Position numbers and translations under genes: made by a program
The notes under the pieces: model-generated
Database searches by the model: none
The model's input: only the letters and a program-made list of their open reading frames with translations
Told to the model about the DNA's origin: nothing
Part shown: in pieces, positions 10,466-26,680 of the stretch
Layout: each line of letters begins with the position of its first letter
Position numbering within the stretch: the stretch's first letter is position 1
Assembly: GCA_016871495.1 (NCBI GenBank)
Contig: VHDF01000022.1
Coordinates: 1 to 63,718 of the forward strand
From: Verrucomicrobiota bacterium
GTDB taxonomy: Bacteria; Verrucomicrobiota; Verrucomicrobiia; Limisphaerales; VHDF01
Reading direction: 5' to 3'
Length of the DNA stretch: 63,718 nt

Positions 10466-12325
10466 CTACTTCTCGATCACAAAATGGTCCCGGATCGTTC
10501 CGTCGATGTCGTAGGCGCGATAAACCAGCCTCGGACCGGAGACTTGCAGGTCGATCACTTGATAGGTGGCGATCTTGGTGAATCCTTGTTCCGTGTAATC
10601 GCGCGGGTCCTGGTCGTAGTGCTTGGTCCCCGACACCGACACAATGTAAATGGTGCCCTTCTTGGGGTCGTTGACCCGCTTGCTGTTTTTCAAGGGATAG
10701 GTGCGAAGGTAGGCGTGATCATGCCCTTGCAGCGCGAGGTCGACGTGATGTTTGTCGAAGATCGGGGTCCATGCGTTGCGCAACGCCTTGTTGTCCCGCT
10801 TGGGCGCCGAGGCATAGGCGGGGTGATGGTACGACACGAATTTCCAGGTGGCTTTGCTGCGGCTCAACTGCATTTCGAGCCATTCGGTTTGGGATTCCGG
10901 GGGAAGGTTCGAATCGAGGATCAAAAACAAGGCGTTGCCGTAATGGAGAGCATAGGCGCGCTCGGGCCGGACGCCCGCCGGACCGTTCCGCGGCAAGTCG
11001 AACAGTTTCAAATAAAGCTCGGGCTGCCCTCCCTGGCATTCGTGGTTGCCGAGGACTGGGACCAGCGGACGGTTTTCGTACACACCGCGCGCGTTGAAAA
11101 GCAGGCTGTCCCAATCGTCGCGCTCGGCGCCGCGGTTCACGAGATCCCCGGCCATCAGATAAAACGCCACGTCAGGTCTTTCGCGGTAGGCGTTCTTCAC
11201 CAGCGTGCCCCAGCGGTCGAGTCCATTTTGGGCGTCGCCCATGTAAACGAAGGAGAAAGGCGCGTCTCCCGCCGGCGCGGTCGTAAATTCCGCCAGCTCG
11301 GTCCAATCGTCCCGGCGCCCGGTGCCGATGGAATAGACATAGCGTGTGCCGGGTTCCAATCCCACCAGACGCGCCGTGTGCCAGTGCACCGAAGGATCAT
11401 TGATGACGAAGGGTGTTTCAATGCGTTCCGTGGCCGCTCCAACCTCGCGAAGGGGCGAAGCATGGAATCGATGGTAGTCGGACTTCTTCTGAAATCGAAC
11501 CCGGCCCTTCTTGATGCGGGGTCCGGTCCGCCACTGAATGCTTTGGGTCGTTCTCGGATCGCCGGCCCAAGTCAATACCGCCAGATCGGGACGGTCTGAA
11601 CTCGGGTGATCCGTGGTGGTGAGAACGTTCACCAGTTTGCAGTTCGAGCGCGAGGCATACACCGTTTGAATCAGGGTGCTGCCGGCGAGTGCCTCAGGCA
11701 GTTTCTCGAACTTCTCGTCGCGATCGACGTAAGGTTTGAGGCCGGGGATCGCAGGTTGGACGCGGAGTTGGCCGGGATAAAGGTCGGAGATTTCGAGCGC
11801 GGCGCCGTCGGATTCTGGTTTCACGAAGACGGCGTAGTGGCGTCCCGATCCGTCGATGGAGTTGACTCCCAGTTCTACTTCCCCGGCGGGAAAGGAGCGT
11901 TTCCACAGGTCCCATTCATAGTCTCCACCGGCCTTGAATTTCTTCCCGAACTTCGTGAACCCCCTTTCTTCAAGCCAGAAGGGTTGTTTGCCCAGGCCGG
12001 CATCCCGGACCACGATGATTTCAGACGGAACCTGGATCCGAAATCGAAGGTGCTTGGAGGCGAGAATGCGGCGTTCTTCCGGAGTCAGCGCGGCGAGAAC
12101 CTGAGACACGCTTTGCGTGCGGACTTGTGCCACGGTCCAGGTCTTCTTGAATCGAGCCACGATGCCGGCGCTGGTGTCATGGATGGAAAGATGGATCGCA
12201 TCATGCGCCCAGGCAGGTCCGGCCGCGGAGAGGAGCATTCCAGCCCAAGCCAGCCAAGCGCGAACGACACGGACGCCCGGAATGGAACCGCGAACATGCG
12301 GCTTCGAAAGTTGCGGTGCAAACAT
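10466..12325 (-). CDS. Secreted purple-acid-phosphatase-like metallophosphoesterase
   Basis: 619 residues from ATG 12325, with a signal peptide ending near AGPAWAHD. A fibronectin/PAP N-terminal-like domain (about residues 230-330) precedes a calcineurin-like metallophosphoesterase domain. Its metal-binding blocks are all visible: YMGDAQNG, AGDLVNRG, VLGNHE, SYHHPAY and QGHDHAY. This order is typical of PAP-type enzymes that release phosphate from esters outside the cytoplasm. About 200 N-terminal residues do not match a domain I recognise. It precedes the PSD1 gene by 53 bp in the same direction. Confidence 0.83.
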   Translation of the reverse strand: MFAPQLSKPHVRGSIPGVRVVRAWLAWAGMLLSAAGPAWAHDAIHLSIHDTSAGIVARFKKTWTVAQVRTQSVSQVLAALTPEERRILASKHLRFRIQVPSEIIVVRDAGLGKQPFWLEERGFTKFGKKFKAGGDYEWDLWKRSFPAGEVELGVNSIDGSGRHYAVFVKPESDGAALEISDLYPGQLRVQPAIPGLKPYVDRDEKFEKLPEALAGSTLIQTVYASRSNCKLVNVLTTTDHPSSDRPDLAVLTWAGDPRTTQSIQWRTGPRIKKGRVRFQKKSDYHRFHASPLREVGAATERIETPFVINDPSVHWHTARLVGLEPGTRYVYSIGTGRRDDWTELAEFTTAPAGDAPFSFVYMGDAQNGLDRWGTLVKNAYRERPDVAFYLMAGDLVNRGAERDDWDSLLFNARGVYENRPLVPVLGNHECQGGQPELYLKLFDLPRNGPAGVRPERAYALHYGNALFLILDSNLPPESQTEWLEMQLSRSKATWKFVSYHHPAYASAPKRDNKALRNAWTPIFDKHHVDLALQGHDHAYLRTYPLKNSKRVNDPKKGTIYIVSVSGTKHYDQDPRDYTEQGFTKIATYQVIDLQVSGPRLVYRAYDIDGTIRDHFVIEK

Positions 12326-12453
12326 CAACGGAGGCTAGCTCCCGGCGAGGGCTGAAGGCTATGAAGTTTTGGCGAATTTCGAGCGACAAACAGGACGCGG
12401 GAACACGGCAGTTTTTTCTCGCGTGAAGCGGAGGCGGGCTGGATTCTGGGGCC

Positions 12454-12837: not shown

Positions 12838-12847
12838 CCTGCCGTGC

Positions 12848-13196
12848 AACCCGAAGCGGTCTGTCGTGTGGCGCAGGCTGCCCAGCCTGCCGTATCGCCG
12901 ACGGCCCGTCGGCCCGGCGGGTGAAGAACGACGCCCTTCCATGTTCTCCACGCGCCTGGCCCGGATCATTCATCCTGAGCTTGAATCCGCGACCGTGTGC
13001 CGCGTGAGGGCACGCGGCCTACCATCGCGCCTGCCTCTGTGTTTGGAGGCCCGGTGTCATCACCGGGCGTCCCGTGCATGAAATAGGCGGCCTGGTTTCC
13101 TTCGTCGCCCCGCAGGCTGGGCAGCCTGCGAAACAGCAGACAGGGCTGTCTGCGTGACCACGACAACCCGGTCACCGACAACCTCTGGATGCACCG
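12848..13196 (-). repeat. Repeat family A, copy A3 with internal insertion
   Basis: A minus-oriented family A element whose two halves are separated by about 130 bp of unrelated sequence (roughly 12963-13097). Both outer GCAGGCTG hairpins, CGCCGACGG/CCGTCGGCC and GCAGACAG/CTGTCTGC are present. It occupies most of the gene-free stretch 12838-13269. Confidence 0.8.
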
Positions 13197-13827: not shown

Positions 13828-13960
13828 AATGAATCTCTTCGAAAATCGTGTTTCTGACCGCGTGCTTCCCGCTCTGAGTGGAAGCGGAGCCCGCGAAGCT
13901 ACCCAAGCACTTCTCGATTGCAAGCCCTGAGTTTTGTCAACTTCTTGCCGCCGCGCATCC

Positions 13961-14166
13961 CGAGGTGGTCCGTCGTGTGGCGCAGGCTGCCCAGCCTGCT
14001 GTATCGCCGACGGCTCGTCGGCCCGGCGGGTGAAGAAGGAGGCCCTTCCATGCTCTCCACGCGCCGGTTTCTCGGCGTCGCCCCGCAGGCTGGGCAGCCT
14101 GCGAAACAGCAGACAGGGCTGTCTGCGTTACCAGGACAACCCGGTCACCGACAACCTCTGGATGCT
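13961..14166 (-). repeat. Repeat family A, copy A4
   Basis: A complete minus-oriented copy (about 206 bp) without the A3 insertion. It fills the gap between efp and the prepilin-like gene (13828-14261), in which no gene is seen. A3 and A4 are in the same orientation and flank efp. Confidence 0.85.
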
Positions 14167-14261
14167 CCGTTCTTCCCGTCCTGCCTCCCCCCTGTGCCTC
14201 GGGTTGTCCGGTTGACTTTTGTTTTCGCAATGGGGAGCTTTAAGGCGTCACCTGAGCCACC

Positions 14262-16931: not shown

Positions 16932-17129
16932 AGCCAGGAATCCCAACGGGATTCCGTCCCGAAGCCCAAGGTAGCTCGTTCCTCGCAACCGTGGGCTGGA
17001 GGACACAATCCCTTTGGGATTGAAGGCGGGATCCCGTCGCCATGGGCATCACCCATTCCGTGACCCATTGAGAAAACACAACGAAGAACGAGGCCGATCC
17101 TTGATGGATCTGGTGAGTGCTTCGTCTTG

Positions 17130-17292
17130 GGAGCGCGACTGTGCTGAAAAGCCAGTCGCAGCCGCGTCGCCAGCCCGGGACGCGTTGAAAAACCGAGATC
17201 GTCTCGACGTTCGGGCATTGCTGCGGCTGGTCTGCGACACAGCCGCGCTCCGGCGTGTTCGGAGCGCGACGGTGCTGAAAGCCAGTCGCAGC
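17130..17292 (+). repeat. Repeat F: two direct copies of a 32-bp unit
   Basis: GGAGCGCGACTGTGCTGAAA at 17130 and GGAGCGCGACGGTGCTGAAA at 17261 both continue with (A)GCCAGTCGCAGC. They are separated by about 100 bp that also holds a related GTCTGCGACACAGCCGCGCTC. The pair lies 330-490 bp upstream of the phosphate operon. No Pho-box-like sequence was recognised here. Confidence 0.6.
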
Positions 17293-17619
17293 AGCCCGCG
17301 CAGGATCAATTTGCTTTGGGGGGACGATTACCCAGGGCATCCTGATGGCCCGGATCGATCTGACCTTGAGGGGATGGTGGGTATCCTTCGGGAACAGCCA
17401 CCGCACAGGAATCAGTGGCCCGGACGGCGGGTTGAAACGAGGCTTGCGAGCATTGTTGCGCCAACGGGAGCAACGACCCGGATGCGGGTTGAGTGACCCG
17501 AGGTTGCGATTTGGACAAGTGGGCGAGCTCGTCGAGTGTTTTTGATGCGCGGCGCGGGAATTCCCCGTTGCAGCGAGTCTGGTGCTCGTGCATTCTCACG
17601 CCGATCCAGGCAATCCAGG

Positions 17620-18717
17620 ATGAGCACTTATTACGAGGCTACCTTGCAGCGCGATATCGACCGGATTCGCGCGGCTGTCACGGAAATGGCGCGCCTTGCG
17701 GCTGATGCCCTCGACGCCTGCTTGCGAGCGCTTGAGGCCCGCGATCGACGGCTCGCCTATTCCGTCATCCTCCGGGACCGGCGGATCGACACGCTGGAGC
17801 GCGAGATCGACCACCTTTGCCTTGAGTTCCTCGTCCGACAACAACCGGTGGCGAAACACCTCCGCTTCGCCTACGTCACCATCAAGCTCAACCAGGAGAT
17901 CGAGCGGGTCGGTGATTACGCCGAAAGCATCGCGCGGCAGATCCTGAAACTGTCGGGTATGGATGCCGCCCCGCTGCTGGAACGTTACCGGGAAATCGCC
18001 GGCCTGGCGGTGCCCATGTTTCGCGACGCCGTGCGCGCCTATCTGACCGAGGATGCCGACCTGGCCCGGCGCGCCAGCCAGATCGAGGAGGAGGTTGACG
18101 CCCTCAAGAGCGTGATCAACGCGGAGCTGTTCCAGTTGCGCCAGTCCAACCAAATCCCGCTGGAGGCGCTGACGCCCTTGATGACCATCGCGCGGCGCTT
18201 CGAGCGCGTCTCCGACCAGGCGAAAAACATTTGCGAGGAAGCGCTCTACTTCGTCACCGGCGAGTATCAGAAGCACGTGGGTGGAGACACCTGGCGGGTG
18301 CTCTTCATCGACGAACACAATGCCTGCCGCAGCCAGATGGCTGAGGCCATCGCCAATTCCCTCGGCCAGCCCCAGTTCATGTTCGCCAGTGCAGGACTGA
18401 ATGCCGCGCCGTTGGACACACGGACGGTCCCTTTTCTCGAAGGTAAGGGCATCCCCGTTTCCCGCTCTCAGCCGCGAGCGATTGAAAGTGTTCCGAACCT
18501 GGAGCGTTACCAGATCATGGTCGCGCTGGCCCGCGAGGCCAAGCGCGCGTTCCCTGTGAAAACGAAATCCATCTGTCTGGATTGGAGCATTCCCGACCCG
18601 TCGAAGGCCACTGGCTCCGCCGAGGAAATCCAGAAGGCCTACGAAAACGCCTACCAGGCGCTCTGCCTGCAAATCGAGGATCTCGTCGAAGGGATCCTGG
18701 GCGACAAAATCGATTAG
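17620..18717 (+). CDS. phoU: PhoU-type regulator fused to an ArsC/LMW-PTP-like domain lacking the nucleophile
   Basis: 365 residues from ATG 17620; an in-frame extension back to 17536 is unsupported. Residues 1-215 are PhoU: two three-helix bundles with metal-binding motifs EIERVGDYAESI (about 93-104) and RRFERVSDQAKNI (about 192-204). PhoU mediates phosphate-dependent inhibition of Pst and the PhoR kinase. Residues 225-365 match the arsenate-reductase/low-Mr tyrosine phosphatase fold, with VLFIDEHNACRSQMAEA at 227-243. Family members read VLFVCxHNACRSQMAE, so the catalytic Cys is Asp231 (codon GAC, two bases from Cys). Asn234, Arg237 and the late general-acid region IPDP remain. The domain probably binds an oxyanion without catalysis. 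First gene of the pst operon, 12 bp before pstS. Confidence 0.88.
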   Translation: MSTYYEATLQRDIDRIRAAVTEMARLAADALDACLRALEARDRRLAYSVILRDRRIDTLEREIDHLCLEFLVRQQPVAKHLRFAYVTIKLNQEIERVGDYAESIARQILKLSGMDAAPLLERYREIAGLAVPMFRDAVRAYLTEDADLARRASQIEEEVDALKSVINAELFQLRQSNQIPLEALTPLMTIARRFERVSDQAKNICEEALYFVTGEYQKHVGGDTWRVLFIDEHNACRSQMAEAIANSLGQPQFMFASAGLNAAPLDTRTVPFLEGKGIPVSRSQPRAIESVPNLERYQIMVALAREAKRAFPVKTKSICLDWSIPDPSKATGSAEEIQKAYENAYQALCLQIEDLVEGILGDKID

Positions 18718-18729
18718 TGAACCGCGATT

Positions 18730-19659
18730 ATGACCAAGCCAAACTCACTCCTTCGGGGCATCTGCGATAGTGCCACCCTGGCCCTCGCCTGCGTCGTTTT
18801 TCTGTCCGGTTGCGGAAAATCCGGCACGCAATCCTCCTCCGGCGGAGGCTCCGAAAAGAAAACCACGGTGGCCAACATCGGCTCCGACACCATGGTCAAC
18901 ATCGCGGCCGCCTGGGCCGAAGCCTACGGCGCGGTGGACAAGACCGTCCTCATCGAAGTCAATGGCGGCGGCTCCGGCGTCGGCATCAAGGGCCTGATCA
19001 ATGGCACCGCCGAAATCGCCAATTCCAGTCGCCACATCGAGGACAAGGAGAGGGCCGAGTTGAAGGAGAAACGCCAACTGGACGCCAAGGAATTCATCGT
19101 CGGCATCGACGCGCTCTCCATCTACGTCCACAAGGACAATCCCCTCAACGAGATCACCATGGAGCAACTCGGCGAGATCTATCGATCCGACGGCAAGATC
19201 ACGAAGTGGACAGAACTCGGCGTTTCGAGCATCCCGGGCGGCAAGGGCGATGAGATTATTCGCGTCAGCCGCCAGAACAACTCCGGCACCTACGAGTATT
19301 TCAAGGAAGTGGTGGTTGGGAAAAGGAACGAATTCAAGCTCGGCTCGCTCGATATGAACGGCTCGAAGGACGTGGTGGAACTCGTCGGCAAGACCCCCAA
19401 TGCCATCGGCTACTCCGGCATGGGCTACGCGAATCCCTCCGTGAAAACGATCAAGGTCGCGAAGAAGAAGGGGGATCCGTATGTCGCGCCGAGCATCGCC
19501 ACCACTCAGGACAAGTCTTATCCCATCGCCCGCCCCATGTTTGTCTACACCGCGGGTGAACCTGCGCCGCACCTGAAGAAATACATCGACTGGACGTTGT
19601 CCGAGGAAGGCCAGAAGCTGCTCCTGAGCACGGGCTACGTGCCAGTCCCCAAGAAGTGA
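18730..19659 (+). CDS. pstS: Phosphate-binding lipoprotein PstS
   Basis: 309 residues. A hydrophobic signal ends in the lipobox LSGC (Cys about 28), so it is membrane-anchored on the outer face of the inner membrane. The mature part is a type II periplasmic binding protein of the PstS/PBP-like-2 class. GSDTMVNIAAAWAEAY and GGGSGVGIKGLINGTAEIANSSR are the phosphate-binding loops, and SRQNNSGTYEYFKE is the third anion-binding segment. Length is typical. It supplies phosphate to PstCA and sits between the PhoU fusion and pstC. Confidence 0.93.
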   Translation: MTKPNSLLRGICDSATLALACVVFLSGCGKSGTQSSSGGGSEKKTTVANIGSDTMVNIAAAWAEAYGAVDKTVLIEVNGGGSGVGIKGLINGTAEIANSSRHIEDKERAELKEKRQLDAKEFIVGIDALSIYVHKDNPLNEITMEQLGEIYRSDGKITKWTELGVSSIPGGKGDEIIRVSRQNNSGTYEYFKEVVVGKRNEFKLGSLDMNGSKDVVELVGKTPNAIGYSGMGYANPSVKTIKVAKKKGDPYVAPSIATTQDKSYPIARPMFVYTAGEPAPHLKKYIDWTLSEEGQKLLLSTGYVPVPKK

Positions 19660-19762: not shown

Positions 19763-20674
19763 ATGGCCCCACCCACCGCCCCGCGCCCCGCTCGCAGCGC
19801 CTTCGCTCTCGTCGGGGAGCGTGTCGTCGAATCGCTGGTTTACCTTTGCGGCATCAGTGCCATCGTGTTCGTGTTCGGCATCTTCTTTTTCGTTTTCAAG
19901 GAGGGCGCGCCCATGTTGGGCAAACTCAATTTTGCGGAGTTCTTCCTCAGCAAGGAATGGATCCCCACCTCCTCTGTCCAGCCCAAGTACGGCATCGGCG
20001 CGCTGATCGTCGGCACCTTGAGCGTGACCTTCCTGGCGATGTTCATCGCGGTGCCGTTCGGCCTCGGCGCGGCGGTGTTTGTCTCCGAGTTCTGCTCCGG
20101 CAAAGTGAAGGAGACGCTGAAGATCGTCATTGAACTGCTCGCGGCGATCCCGAGCGTGGTTTGGGGCTTCATCGGCCTCAGCGTCATGAACCGGGTCATC
20201 ATCGGCTTGTTCGATGTCCCCGTGGGCGTGAACCTTCTCAACGCCGCTCTCCTCCTCGCGCTCATGAGTGTGCCCATCATGGTCAGCATCGGCGAGGATG
20301 CCCTCAAGGCTGTCCCCGACAGCTACCGCGAGGCCGGCATCGCCCTCGGTGCGACAAGATGGCAACTGGTCTATCGCGTCCTGCTGCCCGCAGCCAAGAA
20401 CGGGCTCCTGGCGGCGGTGCTGCTCGGCGTCGGACGCGCCATCGGAGAAACCATGGCGGTGCTGATGGCCACGGGACACTCGATCAATATTCCGCAATCG
20501 ATTTTCGATCCCGTCCGCACGCTCACCGCCACCATCGCCGCCGAACTGGGCGAAACCTCGCAAGGATCGAACCACTATCAGGTGCTGTTCCTCATCGGTG
20601 TCGTGCTCTTCTCAATCACGTTCGTCGTCAATTTCCTGGCCGACCTGGCGGTGAAAGGCGTCAAGAAGCAATAG
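19763..20674 (+). CDS. pstC: Phosphate ABC transporter permease PstC
   Basis: 303 residues with six predicted membrane helices; the first is LVYLCGISAIVFVFGIFFFV. The cytoplasmic EAA loop is clear as YREAGIALGATRWQLVYRVLLP, where the coupling helix contacts PstB, and IGETMAVLMATG is the usual PstC helix 5 sequence. It forms the channel with PstA. The 103-bp gap after pstS shows no gene. Confidence 0.92.
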   Translation: MAPPTAPRPARSAFALVGERVVESLVYLCGISAIVFVFGIFFFVFKEGAPMLGKLNFAEFFLSKEWIPTSSVQPKYGIGALIVGTLSVTFLAMFIAVPFGLGAAVFVSEFCSGKVKETLKIVIELLAAIPSVVWGFIGLSVMNRVIIGLFDVPVGVNLLNAALLLALMSVPIMVSIGEDALKAVPDSYREAGIALGATRWQLVYRVLLPAAKNGLLAAVLLGVGRAIGETMAVLMATGHSINIPQSIFDPVRTLTATIAAELGETSQGSNHYQVLFLIGVVLFSITFVVNFLADLAVKGVKKQ

Positions 20675-20800: not shown

Positions 20801-21697
20801 ATGTTCACCGAGACTCCATTCATCCGTAAAAAAAGGCGCCTCGAACTCATGGCGAAGTGCTTCTTCGGCGCGATGGCCGCGGCCATGGTCATTCCGCTTT
20901 TCCTCATCATCGGCTACATCGTGGTGAAAGGCGCGCCTGCCATCTCGTGGGAATTCCTGACCGAGAATCCGCGCGGAGGCGGTGCCAGAGGAGGCATCTG
21001 GGCCGCGATCGTTGGCACCTTCTACATCGTCTTCTTCTCGCTGGTGATCTCCGCGCCGATCGGCGTGCTGGCCGCCGTCCATCTGAACGAATACGCGAAG
21101 GAAAACTGGTTCAGCCGCATGGTGAACCTGGCCGTCGTCAACCTCGCCGGCGTCCCCTCCATCGTGCATGGCCTGTTCGGCGTCGGCGCTTTCGTCTATT
21201 TCGCCAACTTCAATCAAGGAAAGAAATCCATCATCGCCGCCGCGCTCACGCTGGCCGTGATGACGCTGCCGGTCATCATCGCTTCGACCAAAGAGGCGCT
21301 CGCCGCTGTGCCGCGCCAGTTCCGTGAAGCTTGCTGGAACGTCGGCGCGACCCGCTGGCAGACCATCTGGAGCATCGTCCTGCCGAACTCGATCAGCGGC
21401 ATCCTCACCGGCGTCATCCTTCAGGTCAGCCGCACCGCCGGGGAGACCGCGCCCGTCATGCTGACCGGGGTCGCCACCTACAAATTGCTCGAAAGCACCG
21501 GCCTGTTTCTCTACCACCCGGTCAAGGACCAGTGCATGGCGCTCTCCATGCACCTTTACTACATCGCCACGCAGGCGAACAACGTGCCCCCCGCCACACC
21601 CTTCGCCATCGCCACGGTGCTGATTGGCGTGGTGTTGATCGTGAACGCCGCCGCCATCGCCTTTCGCGTCTATCTTCGTTCCCGCAAGAAGTGGTAA
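20801..21697 (+). CDS. pstA: Phosphate ABC transporter permease PstA
   Basis: 298 residues from ATG 20801, preceded by GGAAGGA at good spacing. The upstream in-frame TTG at 20756 is rejected for that reason. Six membrane helices are evident, and the EAA loop reads FREACWNVGATRWQTIWSIVLP. The C-terminus is basic (RVYLRSRKKW). It pairs with PstC; the stop lies 5 bp before pstB1. Confidence 0.92.
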   Translation: MFTETPFIRKKRRLELMAKCFFGAMAAAMVIPLFLIIGYIVVKGAPAISWEFLTENPRGGGARGGIWAAIVGTFYIVFFSLVISAPIGVLAAVHLNEYAKENWFSRMVNLAVVNLAGVPSIVHGLFGVGAFVYFANFNQGKKSIIAAALTLAVMTLPVIIASTKEALAAVPRQFREACWNVGATRWQTIWSIVLPNSISGILTGVILQVSRTAGETAPVMLTGVATYKLLESTGLFLYHPVKDQCMALSMHLYYIATQANNVPPATPFAIATVLIGVVLIVNAAAIAFRVYLRSRKKW

Positions 21698-21702
21698 ACG
21701 CC

Positions 21703-22470
21703 ATGCCTGCTGCCGTGACCAGAAAAATCGAAGTCGAAAACCTCCGCACCTTCTACGGGGCCAAGGAGGTTCATCACGGCCTCTCCTTCCACATCGAGCC
21801 GAACGAAATCTTTGCCATCATCGGACCCGCGCAATCCGGCAAGACCACGCTCCTCCGCGCCATCAATCGCACGCTGGAATTCACCGCCGACTCCCGCATG
21901 ACCGGGACCATCAAGGTGGACGGCGAGGACGTGAAGAAGATGCGCGACGTCTATGGCCTGCGGCGCAAGATCGGCATGGTCGCCCCGCTGCCGGTCGGCC
22001 TGCCGTTGACGATCTACGACAACGTCGCCTTTGCCCCTCGCTCCGCCGGCATCCGCGACCGGAGGTTCCTCGATGCACACGTCGAGCAATGCCTGCGCCA
22101 GGCCGCCCTGTGGGATGAGGTGAAAGACCGCCTGGACTCCCTGGGCACGAAGCTTTCGGGCGGACAACAGCAACGTCTGACCATCGCCCGCGCCCTCAGC
22201 CACCGGCCGGAGATTCTTTGCCTGGACGAATTCAGCATCGCCATCGACCCCGTCACCACGATGCGCATCGAGGACGTGCTCAAGGAGCTCAAGGCGCACA
22301 TGACGATCATCCTCGTCACAAACCTGGTGCAACAAGCCCGCCGCCTCGCCTCGCGCACGATGTTCCTTTGGAATGGGGACATCATTGAACTGGACACGAA
22401 CGAAGTCATGTTCAGCGAAACGCCGAAGGACCGGCGCACCTACGAATACGTGAACGGCATTTTCGGATGA
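21703..22470 (+). CDS. pstB: PstB-type ATPase 1, degenerate Q-loop and H-switch
   Basis: 255 residues from ATG 21703. Walker A GPAQSGKTT (41-49) is intact, the signature LSGGQQQR (151-158) is perfect, and Walker B ILCLDE (171-176) keeps Asp175 and Glu176. However, the Q-loop region of PstB, normally GMVFQ, reads GMVAP (91-95), and the switch region, normally VTHNMQQA, reads VTNLVQQA with Asn207 for His. The D-loop also differs (SIAID rather than SALD). A homodimer of such subunits should hydrolyse ATP poorly. Each of its losses is intact in the adjacent PstB2, suggesting an obligate heterodimer. 97 bp separate it from pstB2. Confidence 0.9.
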   Translation: MPAAVTRKIEVENLRTFYGAKEVHHGLSFHIEPNEIFAIIGPAQSGKTTLLRAINRTLEFTADSRMTGTIKVDGEDVKKMRDVYGLRRKIGMVAPLPVGLPLTIYDNVAFAPRSAGIRDRRFLDAHVEQCLRQAALWDEVKDRLDSLGTKLSGGQQQRLTIARALSHRPEILCLDEFSIAIDPVTTMRIEDVLKELKAHMTIILVTNLVQQARRLASRTMFLWNGDIIELDTNEVMFSETPKDRRTYEYVNGIFG

Positions 22471-22567: not shown

Positions 22568-23341
22568 ATGACTCAGCCCGTTGACTACGCCATCACCACG
22601 CGAGACCTGAAGCTTTGGTACGCCAAGTTCCAGGCGCTGCTCGGCATCACGGTCAACATCAAAAAGGGGCAGATCACGTCGCTCATCGGCCCGTCCGGCT
22701 GCGGCAAAACCACGCTGCTGCGCTGCTTCAACCGCGTCAACGAGCGCTATGGCTACGTCACCACCACCGGCGAGATCAAACTTCACAACAAAAACATCTA
22801 CGACCCGGACGTCTCGCTCATCGAGCTGCGCAAAAGCGTCGGCATGGTCTTCCAGCGGCCTAATCCACTCCCTCTCTCGGTCTATGAGAACGTCGTATTC
22901 GGCCTCCGTATCCACGATGACCAGGGGCTGAAAAAGTCCGATTATGACAACGCCGTGGAGAAGGCGCTGACCGAAGTCGGCTTGTGGAAGGACCTCCAGG
23001 ACCGTCTCGACATGAAGGCCACCAGCCTTCAACTCGAACAGCAGCAAAAGCTCTGCATTGCCCGCCTCCTGCCGCTCAAGCCTGAGATCATCCTCATGGA
23101 CGAGCCGTGCAGCGCCCTCGACGTGAACGGCACCCAAGCCATCGAGGAACTGATGTTCGCTCTCAAGGGCCGCTACACCATCGTCATCGTCACTCACAAC
23201 ATGGCGCAGGCCCGGCGCTCCAGCGATGAATGCATTTTCATGCTCATGGGCGAACTCATCGAGCACAGCCTCACCACCGAACTCTTCCTCGCCCCCAAGA
23301 ACCCCCGGACCGCCGAATACATCGAGGGCCGGTACGGCTGA
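22568..23341 (+). CDS. pstB: PstB-type ATPase 2, degenerate ABC signature
   Basis: 257 residues. Walker A GPSGCGKTT (41-49), Q-loop VGMVFQRPNP (Gln96), Walker B IILMDEP (Asp178, Glu179), D-loop SALD and switch VTHNMAQA (His210) are all canonical PstB. The signature that should read LSGGQQQRLCIAR instead reads LQLEQQQKLCIAR (154-166), so Ser and both Gly of LSGGQ are gone. This subunit can bind and orient ATP but cannot complete the partner's site. It is complementary to PstB1: the only fully canonical composite site would combine PstB2 Walker/Q/H elements with the PstB1 signature. Last gene of the pst operon. Confidence 0.92.
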   Translation: MTQPVDYAITTRDLKLWYAKFQALLGITVNIKKGQITSLIGPSGCGKTTLLRCFNRVNERYGYVTTTGEIKLHNKNIYDPDVSLIELRKSVGMVFQRPNPLPLSVYENVVFGLRIHDDQGLKKSDYDNAVEKALTEVGLWKDLQDRLDMKATSLQLEQQQKLCIARLLPLKPEIILMDEPCSALDVNGTQAIEELMFALKGRYTIVIVTHNMAQARRSSDECIFMLMGELIEHSLTTELFLAPKNPRTAEYIEGRYG

Positions 23342-25505: not shown

Positions 25506-25558
25506 ACGTTGGGATGGGGCGCTGGTTGAAAGGGAAGGATGACGAGGAGGCAACACGA

Positions 25559-26680
25559 ATGAATTCGAAAGGAATCAGGTGCTGGACGGTTGTCCTGATG
25601 TTGGTCCTTCAGAGCGGTGCGATGGGGGCGGGAATGGTGCTCGCTCCGGAGGCGGTGTTGGAGCGGATTGGGTTTGGATCGTGTGCAAAGGAGGATCGAC
25701 CGCAACCGATCTGGGAGGTTGTCGTCACCAACCGGCCGCAACTGTTCCTTTTTCTGGGGGACAACATTTATGGCGACACGACCAACCTCACGATTCTTCG
25801 CCAGAAGTGGGGTTTGCTCGGAGCCCAGCCTGGTTTTCAAAAACTCAAACGCACCTGCCCGTTGCTGGCCACCTGGGATGACCACGATTACGGGGCGAAC
25901 GATGCGGGTGCTGATTTTGTCCTGAGGAGGGAATCCCAAGCGGCTTTTCTGGACTTTTTTGAAGTTCCGGCTGGGGATCCGAGACGCACGCGGGACGGGG
26001 TTTATCATTCCGTCGTGGTTGGTCCTGCCGGGCGGCGGGTACAAATCCTACTGCTGGATGCGCGATTTTTCAGAAGTCCGCTGAAAACGGGATTCAAGCC
26101 GGGAGAACCCGGTGAAGGTTACCGGGGTCCGTACGCACCGGAGACATCTCCGTCGGCCACGGTGTTGGGCGAAACCCAATGGCGATGGCTGGAGGCCCGG
26201 TTACGCGAGCCGGCGGAATTGCGGTTGATCTGTTCCGGGGTGCAGGTGATTCCTGACGAACATGGATCGGAGATGTGGGGCAACTTTCCGCTGGAGCGCC
26301 GCCGGCTGTTTGAAGTGATCGCCCGGACTCGCGCGAACGGGGTGGTGTTTCTCAGTGGCGACCGGCATCTCGCCGAAATCATGAGGCTTCCACCGGAGAA
26401 GTCCGGGGTAAGTTACCCGCTGTACGAGGTGACTTCGAGCAGTTTGAATGTCCCGAGCGGAAACCTGACGCGGGCCGGGGTCCGGTTTGCCAACGAGATC
26501 AACTCCTATCGTCAGGGATTGACCTATTTTGATACCAACTACGGCATGATACTCATCGACTGGACGCAGACACCCCCGGTGGTTCGACTGCAGGTTCGCG
26601 ATGAGAAGGACACGGTGGTTCTGCAGCAACGGATCCGGCTGGGCGCCACTGTGGAGGACGTACGACCTGTGCCTCGGTGA
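25559..26680 (+). CDS. PhoD-like alkaline phosphatase family protein, secreted
   Basis: 373 residues from ATG 25559, chosen because GAGGAGG lies 7 bp upstream. A signal peptide (VVLMLVLQSGAMGAG) leads into RIGFGSCAKEDRPQPIW, the PhoD family entry motif. FLFLGDNIYGD, LLATWDDHDYGANDAG, ILLLDARFFRS and FLSGDRHLAE are the metal-binding and catalytic blocks. PhoD enzymes release phosphate from phosphodiesters and monoesters. It lies 53 bp after the PLP enzyme and 3.3 kb after the pst operon, so it may serve phosphate scavenging, but no Pho box was recognised. Confidence 0.88.
   Translation: MNSKGIRCWTVVLMLVLQSGAMGAGMVLAPEAVLERIGFGSCAKEDRPQPIWEVVVTNRPQLFLFLGDNIYGDTTNLTILRQKWGLLGAQPGFQKLKRTCPLLATWDDHDYGANDAGADFVLRRESQAAFLDFFEVPAGDPRRTRDGVYHSVVVGPAGRRVQILLLDARFFRSPLKTGFKPGEPGEGYRGPYAPETSPSATVLGETQWRWLEARLREPAELRLICSGVQVIPDEHGSEMWGNFPLERRRLFEVIARTRANGVVFLSGDRHLAEIMRLPPEKSGVSYPLYEVTSSSLNVPSGNLTRAGVRFANEINSYRQGLTYFDTNYGMILIDWTQTPPVVRLQVRDEKDTVVLQQRIRLGATVEDVRPVPR

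Follow-up and report, generated by a model that had tools for sequence, protein, structure and literature searches.

The question raised by this locus is what a phosphatase-like domain that has lost its nucleophile might do when it is attached to PhoU and encoded beside an unusual pair of transport ATPases. The locus lies in a 63,718-nucleotide stretch of DNA from a Verrucomicrobiota bacterium (VHDF01000022.1), referred to here as the window, and its operon is of a type that occurs in many bacterial phyla and appears to be a version, so far undescribed, of the standard bacterial phosphate importer. It has the gene set, the protein families and the PhoU fold in common with the canonical PstSCAB-PhoU system, but differs from it in possessing two non-equivalent PstB proteins with reciprocal motif loss and a PhoU that carries an apparently dead LMWP domain. 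How PhoU detects which state the Pst transporter is in has long been an open question, and a natural system with fixed live and dead ATP sites and a docking domain on PhoU would offer a way of asking to which half of the transporter PhoU responds.

The PhoU fusion and its phosphatase-like domain

The fusion is encoded on the forward strand at 17620-18717 (ATG at 17620, stop codon at 18715-18717) and comprises 365 residues, with PhoU at residues 9-215 and the LMWP/ArsC fold at approximately 222-361. The sequence VLFIDEHNACRSQMAEA is truly present in this ORF (17620-18717, +), and the protein reads WRVLFIDEHNACRSQMAEA from 18292. The preliminary description had proposed that PhoU is joined to an ArsC/LMW-phosphatase domain with Asp in place of the catalytic Cys, and this is confirmed by the reading frame, the profiles, the alignment and the predicted fold. 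The full-length PhoU profile TIGR02135 is passed at 159.7 bits (cut-off 130.25), and E(D)XXXD metal motifs are found in both bundles, with E95..D99 invariant and the second bundle contributing E195..D199, of which D199, together with R196, is invariant. The C-terminal domain scores 43.2 bits against PF01451 (LMWPc, cut-off 23.2), and its top matches among solved sequences are ArsC/LMWP proteins. An AlphaFold2 model of the window fusion has a pLDDT of 93.4 and matches PhoU 1t72 with a Z of 30.6 and Bacillus subtilis ArsC 1jl3 with a Z of 20.6 (Foldseek was also used), with the active-site strand-loop-helix preserved as a strand at 225-231 and a helix starting at 237.

In alignments with solved ArsC proteins, Asp231 (GAC, 18310-18312, +) falls on their nucleophilic Cys, and it replaces the catalytic Cys of LMW-PTP/ArsC, leaving the window domain without the CX5R nucleophile that marks these enzymes, whilst the loop Arg of CX5R is retained as Arg237 (CGC, 18328-18330, +). 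A sequencing error at the GAC codon is ruled out by 129 homologues that also have Asp. Neither the second nor the third relay cysteine of thioredoxin-type ArsC is present in the window protein sequence, and the thioredoxin-type arsenate reductase equivalog is matched at only 54.2 bits against a cut-off of 174.3. Compared with thioredoxin-type ArsC and LMW-PTP proteins (1jl3, 1ljl, 8p5n), the fold, the loop position and a conserved Asn are shared, whereas here Cys has become Asp, the relay cysteines are gone, the Arg is mostly lost across the family and the domain is fused to PhoU. The sequence evidence thus supports the view that the C-terminal domain is a catalytically dead LMWP, or pseudo-LMWP, and with it the lack of chemistry that had been suggested earlier. 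Arsenate detoxification was also considered as a role and rejected, since the protein has neither CX5R nor relay cysteines and the recurring neighbours inspected are PhoR-, PhoB- and Na/Pi-symporter-like.

Conservation of the domain and its lineages

A genome scan, from which 80 loci were kept (L001-L080), and sampling by phylum placed the fusion in 21 of 294 planctomycete, 23 of 398 pseudomonadote and 15 of 247 acidobacteriote genomes, the last comprising 14 non-Cys proteins and one Cys-type. The search for further fusions and the tabulation of the Cys position that had been proposed at the outset gave, for 138 distinct full-length PhoU-LMWP fusions pooled from all loci, Asp in 129, Glu in three, Ser in one and Cys in five. 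Close homologues with Cys were sought as a possible refutation and none was found in the D-type lineage, all 133 members of which have Asp, Glu or Ser. Of the 64 homologues in a first alignment, 63 have the Asp, 58 have Asn234 and all have Trp322, with positions 232 and 233 variable; Trp322 and Ala241 are invariant across the pseudo-LMWP domains aligned. Given that Asp occurs in 129 of 138 fusions while the flanking loop residues vary, Asp231 reflects more than chance, and the family domain is a pseudo-LMWP in which the Asp has been under selection. MAG records titled Akkermansia muciniphila (L001, L002 and L004), titles which may be wrong, carry some of the window's closest relatives.

The remainder of the former active site is less constant. 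The persistence of the Arg, the Asn and the PDP region that had been noted from the window holds there (Arg237, N234, D326), but for the Arg and the PDP acid it does not extend to the family: the CX5R Arg is retained in 21 of 129 D-types and missing in 108, with Leu instead in 60, and the general-acid Asp326 (the 'PDP' acid) is conserved only in the verrucomicrobial and nearby group. Modelling of an Accumulibacter member that lacks the Arg still gives the ArsC fold. As the Arg is mostly lost and the general acid is limited to one clade, the conserved family trait is not an oxyanion pocket.

In domain trees, the D-type proteins fall on one side of a split from the Cys-type fusions and stand-alone proteins, with support of 1.0 for the LMWP domains and 0.947 for the PhoU domains. 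All five Cys-type fusions group with stand-alone proteins, and on this placement they were rejected as recent ancestors of the D-type. These Cys-type PhoU-ArsC fusions (L088-L091, L175/L216) have the same two-domain order as the D-type, but differ in having an intact CX5R, in adjoining a single canonical PstB and in lying outside the D-type clades of both trees. At L088, L089, L090, L091 and L216, PhoU with an intact Cys-type ArsC domain is found beside canonical pst genes, and it is possible that these proteins are active PhoU-arsenate reductases.

The Pst cassette and its two PstB proteins

Within the window the fusion is followed, on the same strand, by the phosphate-binding protein PstS (18730-19659; TIGR02136, 222.8 bits), the permeases PstC (19763-20674; TIGR02138) and PstA (20801-21697; TIGR00974), all three above their family cut-offs, and then by PstB1 (21703-22470) and PstB2 (22568-23341). 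The cassette is flanked by a purple-acid-phosphatase-like metallophosphoesterase (10466-12328, -) and a PhoD-like phosphatase (25514-26680, +), given here as context only. All D-type loci of sufficient length carry PstS, PstC, PstA, PstB1 and PstB2, the exception being a degraded second copy (L210), and those at contig ends show the part of the cassette that would be expected. The order is PhoU-S-C-A-B1-B2 or S-PhoU-C-A-B1-B2. Every complete locus in L001-L080 has the cassette, under MAG titles that include Verrucomicrobia, KSB1, Planctomycetota and Acidobacteriota as well as Proteobacteria, Gemmatimonadaceae, Rhodothermia and Myxococcota, and genes recurring beside it are PhoR-like (12 loci), PhoB-like (10) and Na/Pi-symporter-like (8). 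Since PstS, PstC and PstA pass phosphate-family cut-offs and the neighbours are Pi-related, we infer that the locus encodes a working phosphate importer with phosphate as its substrate. The window's own genome additionally encodes a canonical PstB and PhoU. Of ten genomes checked (E 1e-50; draft assemblies), six yielded no PstB other than the asymmetric pair.

The intergenic DNA of the window contains repeat pairs that are 91-92% alike (12841-12956 with 13950-14065, and 13090-13196 with 14063-14169), a 101-base piece of which has about 40 full-length copies in the genome and gives rise to spurious ORFs. A second dispersed intergenic repeat family lies upstream of the operon (17120-17310) and has 44 mostly partial genome matches.

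The complete ATPase motif set (Walker A/B, Q-loop, LSGGQ and His) is found in neither single PstB and is instead divided between the two. PstB1 has an intact Walker A (GPAQSGKT), signature (LSGGQ, 22153-22167, +) and Walker B Glu (DEF), with Pro replacing Gln in the Q-loop (MVAPLP, 21976-21993, +) and Asn replacing His in the H-loop (VTNLV, 22315-22329, +). PstB2 has an intact Walker A, Q-loop, Walker B and switch His (VTHNM, 23189-23203, +) and a degenerate signature (LQLEQ, 23027-23041, +). The same holds for all 94 distinct PstB1 proteins, which have LSGGQ with the Gln-to-Pro and His-to-Asn changes, and for 88 of the 89 typed PstB2 proteins, which retain Gln and His with LSGGQ changed to L[SQ]L[ED][EQA] (e.g. 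LSLEE or LQLEQ); in the remaining one (L217) His has become Tyr. The 27 canonical PstB proteins in these data all possess the full set. An E. coli PstB sequence served for column numbering only, the motifs being visible without this ruler. PstB1 and PstB2 form clades with support of 0.997 and 0.985 respectively, the latter including the degraded copy, and both fall below the PstB equivalog TIGR00972 (269.6 and 318.9 bits, cut-off 343.2), which is still the best family for each. The suggested coupling of the dead domain to PhoU and its link to the unusual PstB pair are backed by a conserved cassette.

The ATP sites of ABC dimers are composite, one subunit supplying the Walker motifs and its partner the signature. 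Taken together with this shared-site architecture, the reciprocal motif loss predicts that one of the two ATP sites is complete and the other degenerate, and such complementary loss in paired nucleotide-binding domains is what characterises degenerate-site ABC heterodimers. TM287/288, TAP and TmrAB likewise pair a canonical composite site with a degenerate one, but these are exporters, whereas the present system belongs to a phosphate importer family. According to PMC7544095, loss of the Walker B Glu is a hallmark of the degenerate site in exporters; the degenerate site here differs in retaining it.

A reverse test, beginning from the ATPase, found PstB1 in 22 of the 294 planctomycete genomes and the fusion in 20 of these 22; one fusion genome of this sample (G521) has its locus at a contig edge. 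In two planctomycetes (G460 and G529; loci L199 = G460:C132 and L200 = G529:C153) the asymmetric cassette has a plain PhoU after PstB2, with no LMWP domain. These plain-PhoU cassettes indicate that the asymmetric ATPase is the core of the system, usually but not always accompanied by the pseudo-LMWP PhoU; the pair does not strictly require the pseudo-LMWP.

The degraded locus L210 (G723:C75, 5067-7712, minus strand) is a second D-type fusion copy beside a short PstC-like permease and a PstB2-like protein, the latter also recorded as L157, in which the Q-loop, signature, Walker B Glu and His are all lost and only Walker A remnants persist. Pit-like permeases can be read from ORFs nearby. This copy looks like a non-transporting derivative.

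A proposed mechanism and its alternatives

The reading that we favour, and consider reasonably probable, is of an asymmetric Pst-type phosphate importer with an obligate PstB1-PstB2 heterodimer, regulated by a PhoU that bears a non-catalytic pseudo-LMWP docking domain. It builds on features seen directly, namely the sequence, the predicted fold, the conservation of the cassette, the reciprocal motif loss and the loss of the Cys and usually of the Arg. The complete ATP site of the heterodimer would combine the Walker A/B, Q-loop and His of PstB2 with the LSGGQ of PstB1, and the degenerate site would pair the PstB1 Walker motifs, lacking the Q-loop Gln and switch His, with the dead PstB2 signature. 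The degenerate site may bind ATP with no turnover expected, which would confine hydrolysis to one site, although the intact Walker B Glu of PstB1 may allow some residual hydrolysis there. The PhoU half of the fusion would regulate the transporter as in canonical Pst systems. In the LMWP half, the carboxylate of the Asp standing in the nucleophile's place probably occupies the former anion cradle where helix 1 begins, acting as a built-in anion that would lock the loop, and the domain may help to hold PhoU on the asymmetric transporter or on a kinase partner.

The preliminary description had instead suggested an oxyanion sensor, whose dead domain would take up phosphate or arsenate reversibly in the loop and signal to PhoU and PstB. 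The high-confidence ArsC fold would suit such a role, as would the presence of Arg237, N234 and D326 in the window and in most close verrucomicrobial relatives. However, 108 of 129 D-types lack the loop Arg although they retain the Asp, members outside the verrucomicrobial and nearby group have lost the general-acid region, and from established LMW-PTP chemistry a carboxylate at the Cys site would be expected to repel an oxyanion. We therefore do not retain sensing as the general function and regard this explanation as unlikely, whilst sensing is possible in the Arg-retaining minority, the window included. No more probable is a new ligand site in which the Asp serves as ligand to a metal or to a partner protein's arginine. 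An acidic ligand would account for the near-invariant acid (Asp in 129 of 138, Glu in three), but the adjacent acid is not conserved (position 232: E22, R7, G5, K4 and D3 of 46) and the loop has no other invariant acid.

A decayed ArsC/LMWP domain without function would explain why Cys, Arg and general acid have all been lost, yet relics are not retained as this domain is, across many phyla and in 20 of the 22 planctomycete genomes that encode the asymmetric PstB, with Asp and Asn near-invariant and Trp322 and Ala241 invariant; we consider this very improbable. We give equally little credence to two functional homodimeric ATPases with separate jobs. Enterococcus faecalis provides the precedent, with adjacent pstB1 and pstB2 genes in one pst locus, as here, and non-overlapping functions, but in the available text of PMC12096839 the four ATPase motifs are canonical in both E. 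faecalis proteins and no fused PhoU is noted. In the present system, homodimers of PstB1 would have neither the Gln nor the His, and those of PstB2 would be without a signature at either site.

In the open-access papers searched we found no description of a PhoU-ArsC/LMWPc fusion or of an asymmetric or degenerate PstB. That the system represents a class of phosphate importers which is both widespread and undescribed, with one of the ATP sites degenerate for good and the state of the transporter set by a PhoU-pseudophosphatase, is a proposal that we judge evenly poised. If it is true, gating and Pi signalling would run through transporter asymmetry, and in several genomes this would be the only Pst system. 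The system also occurs in Accumulibacter, which is used for biological phosphorus removal, and is apparently the sole Pst in some genomes.
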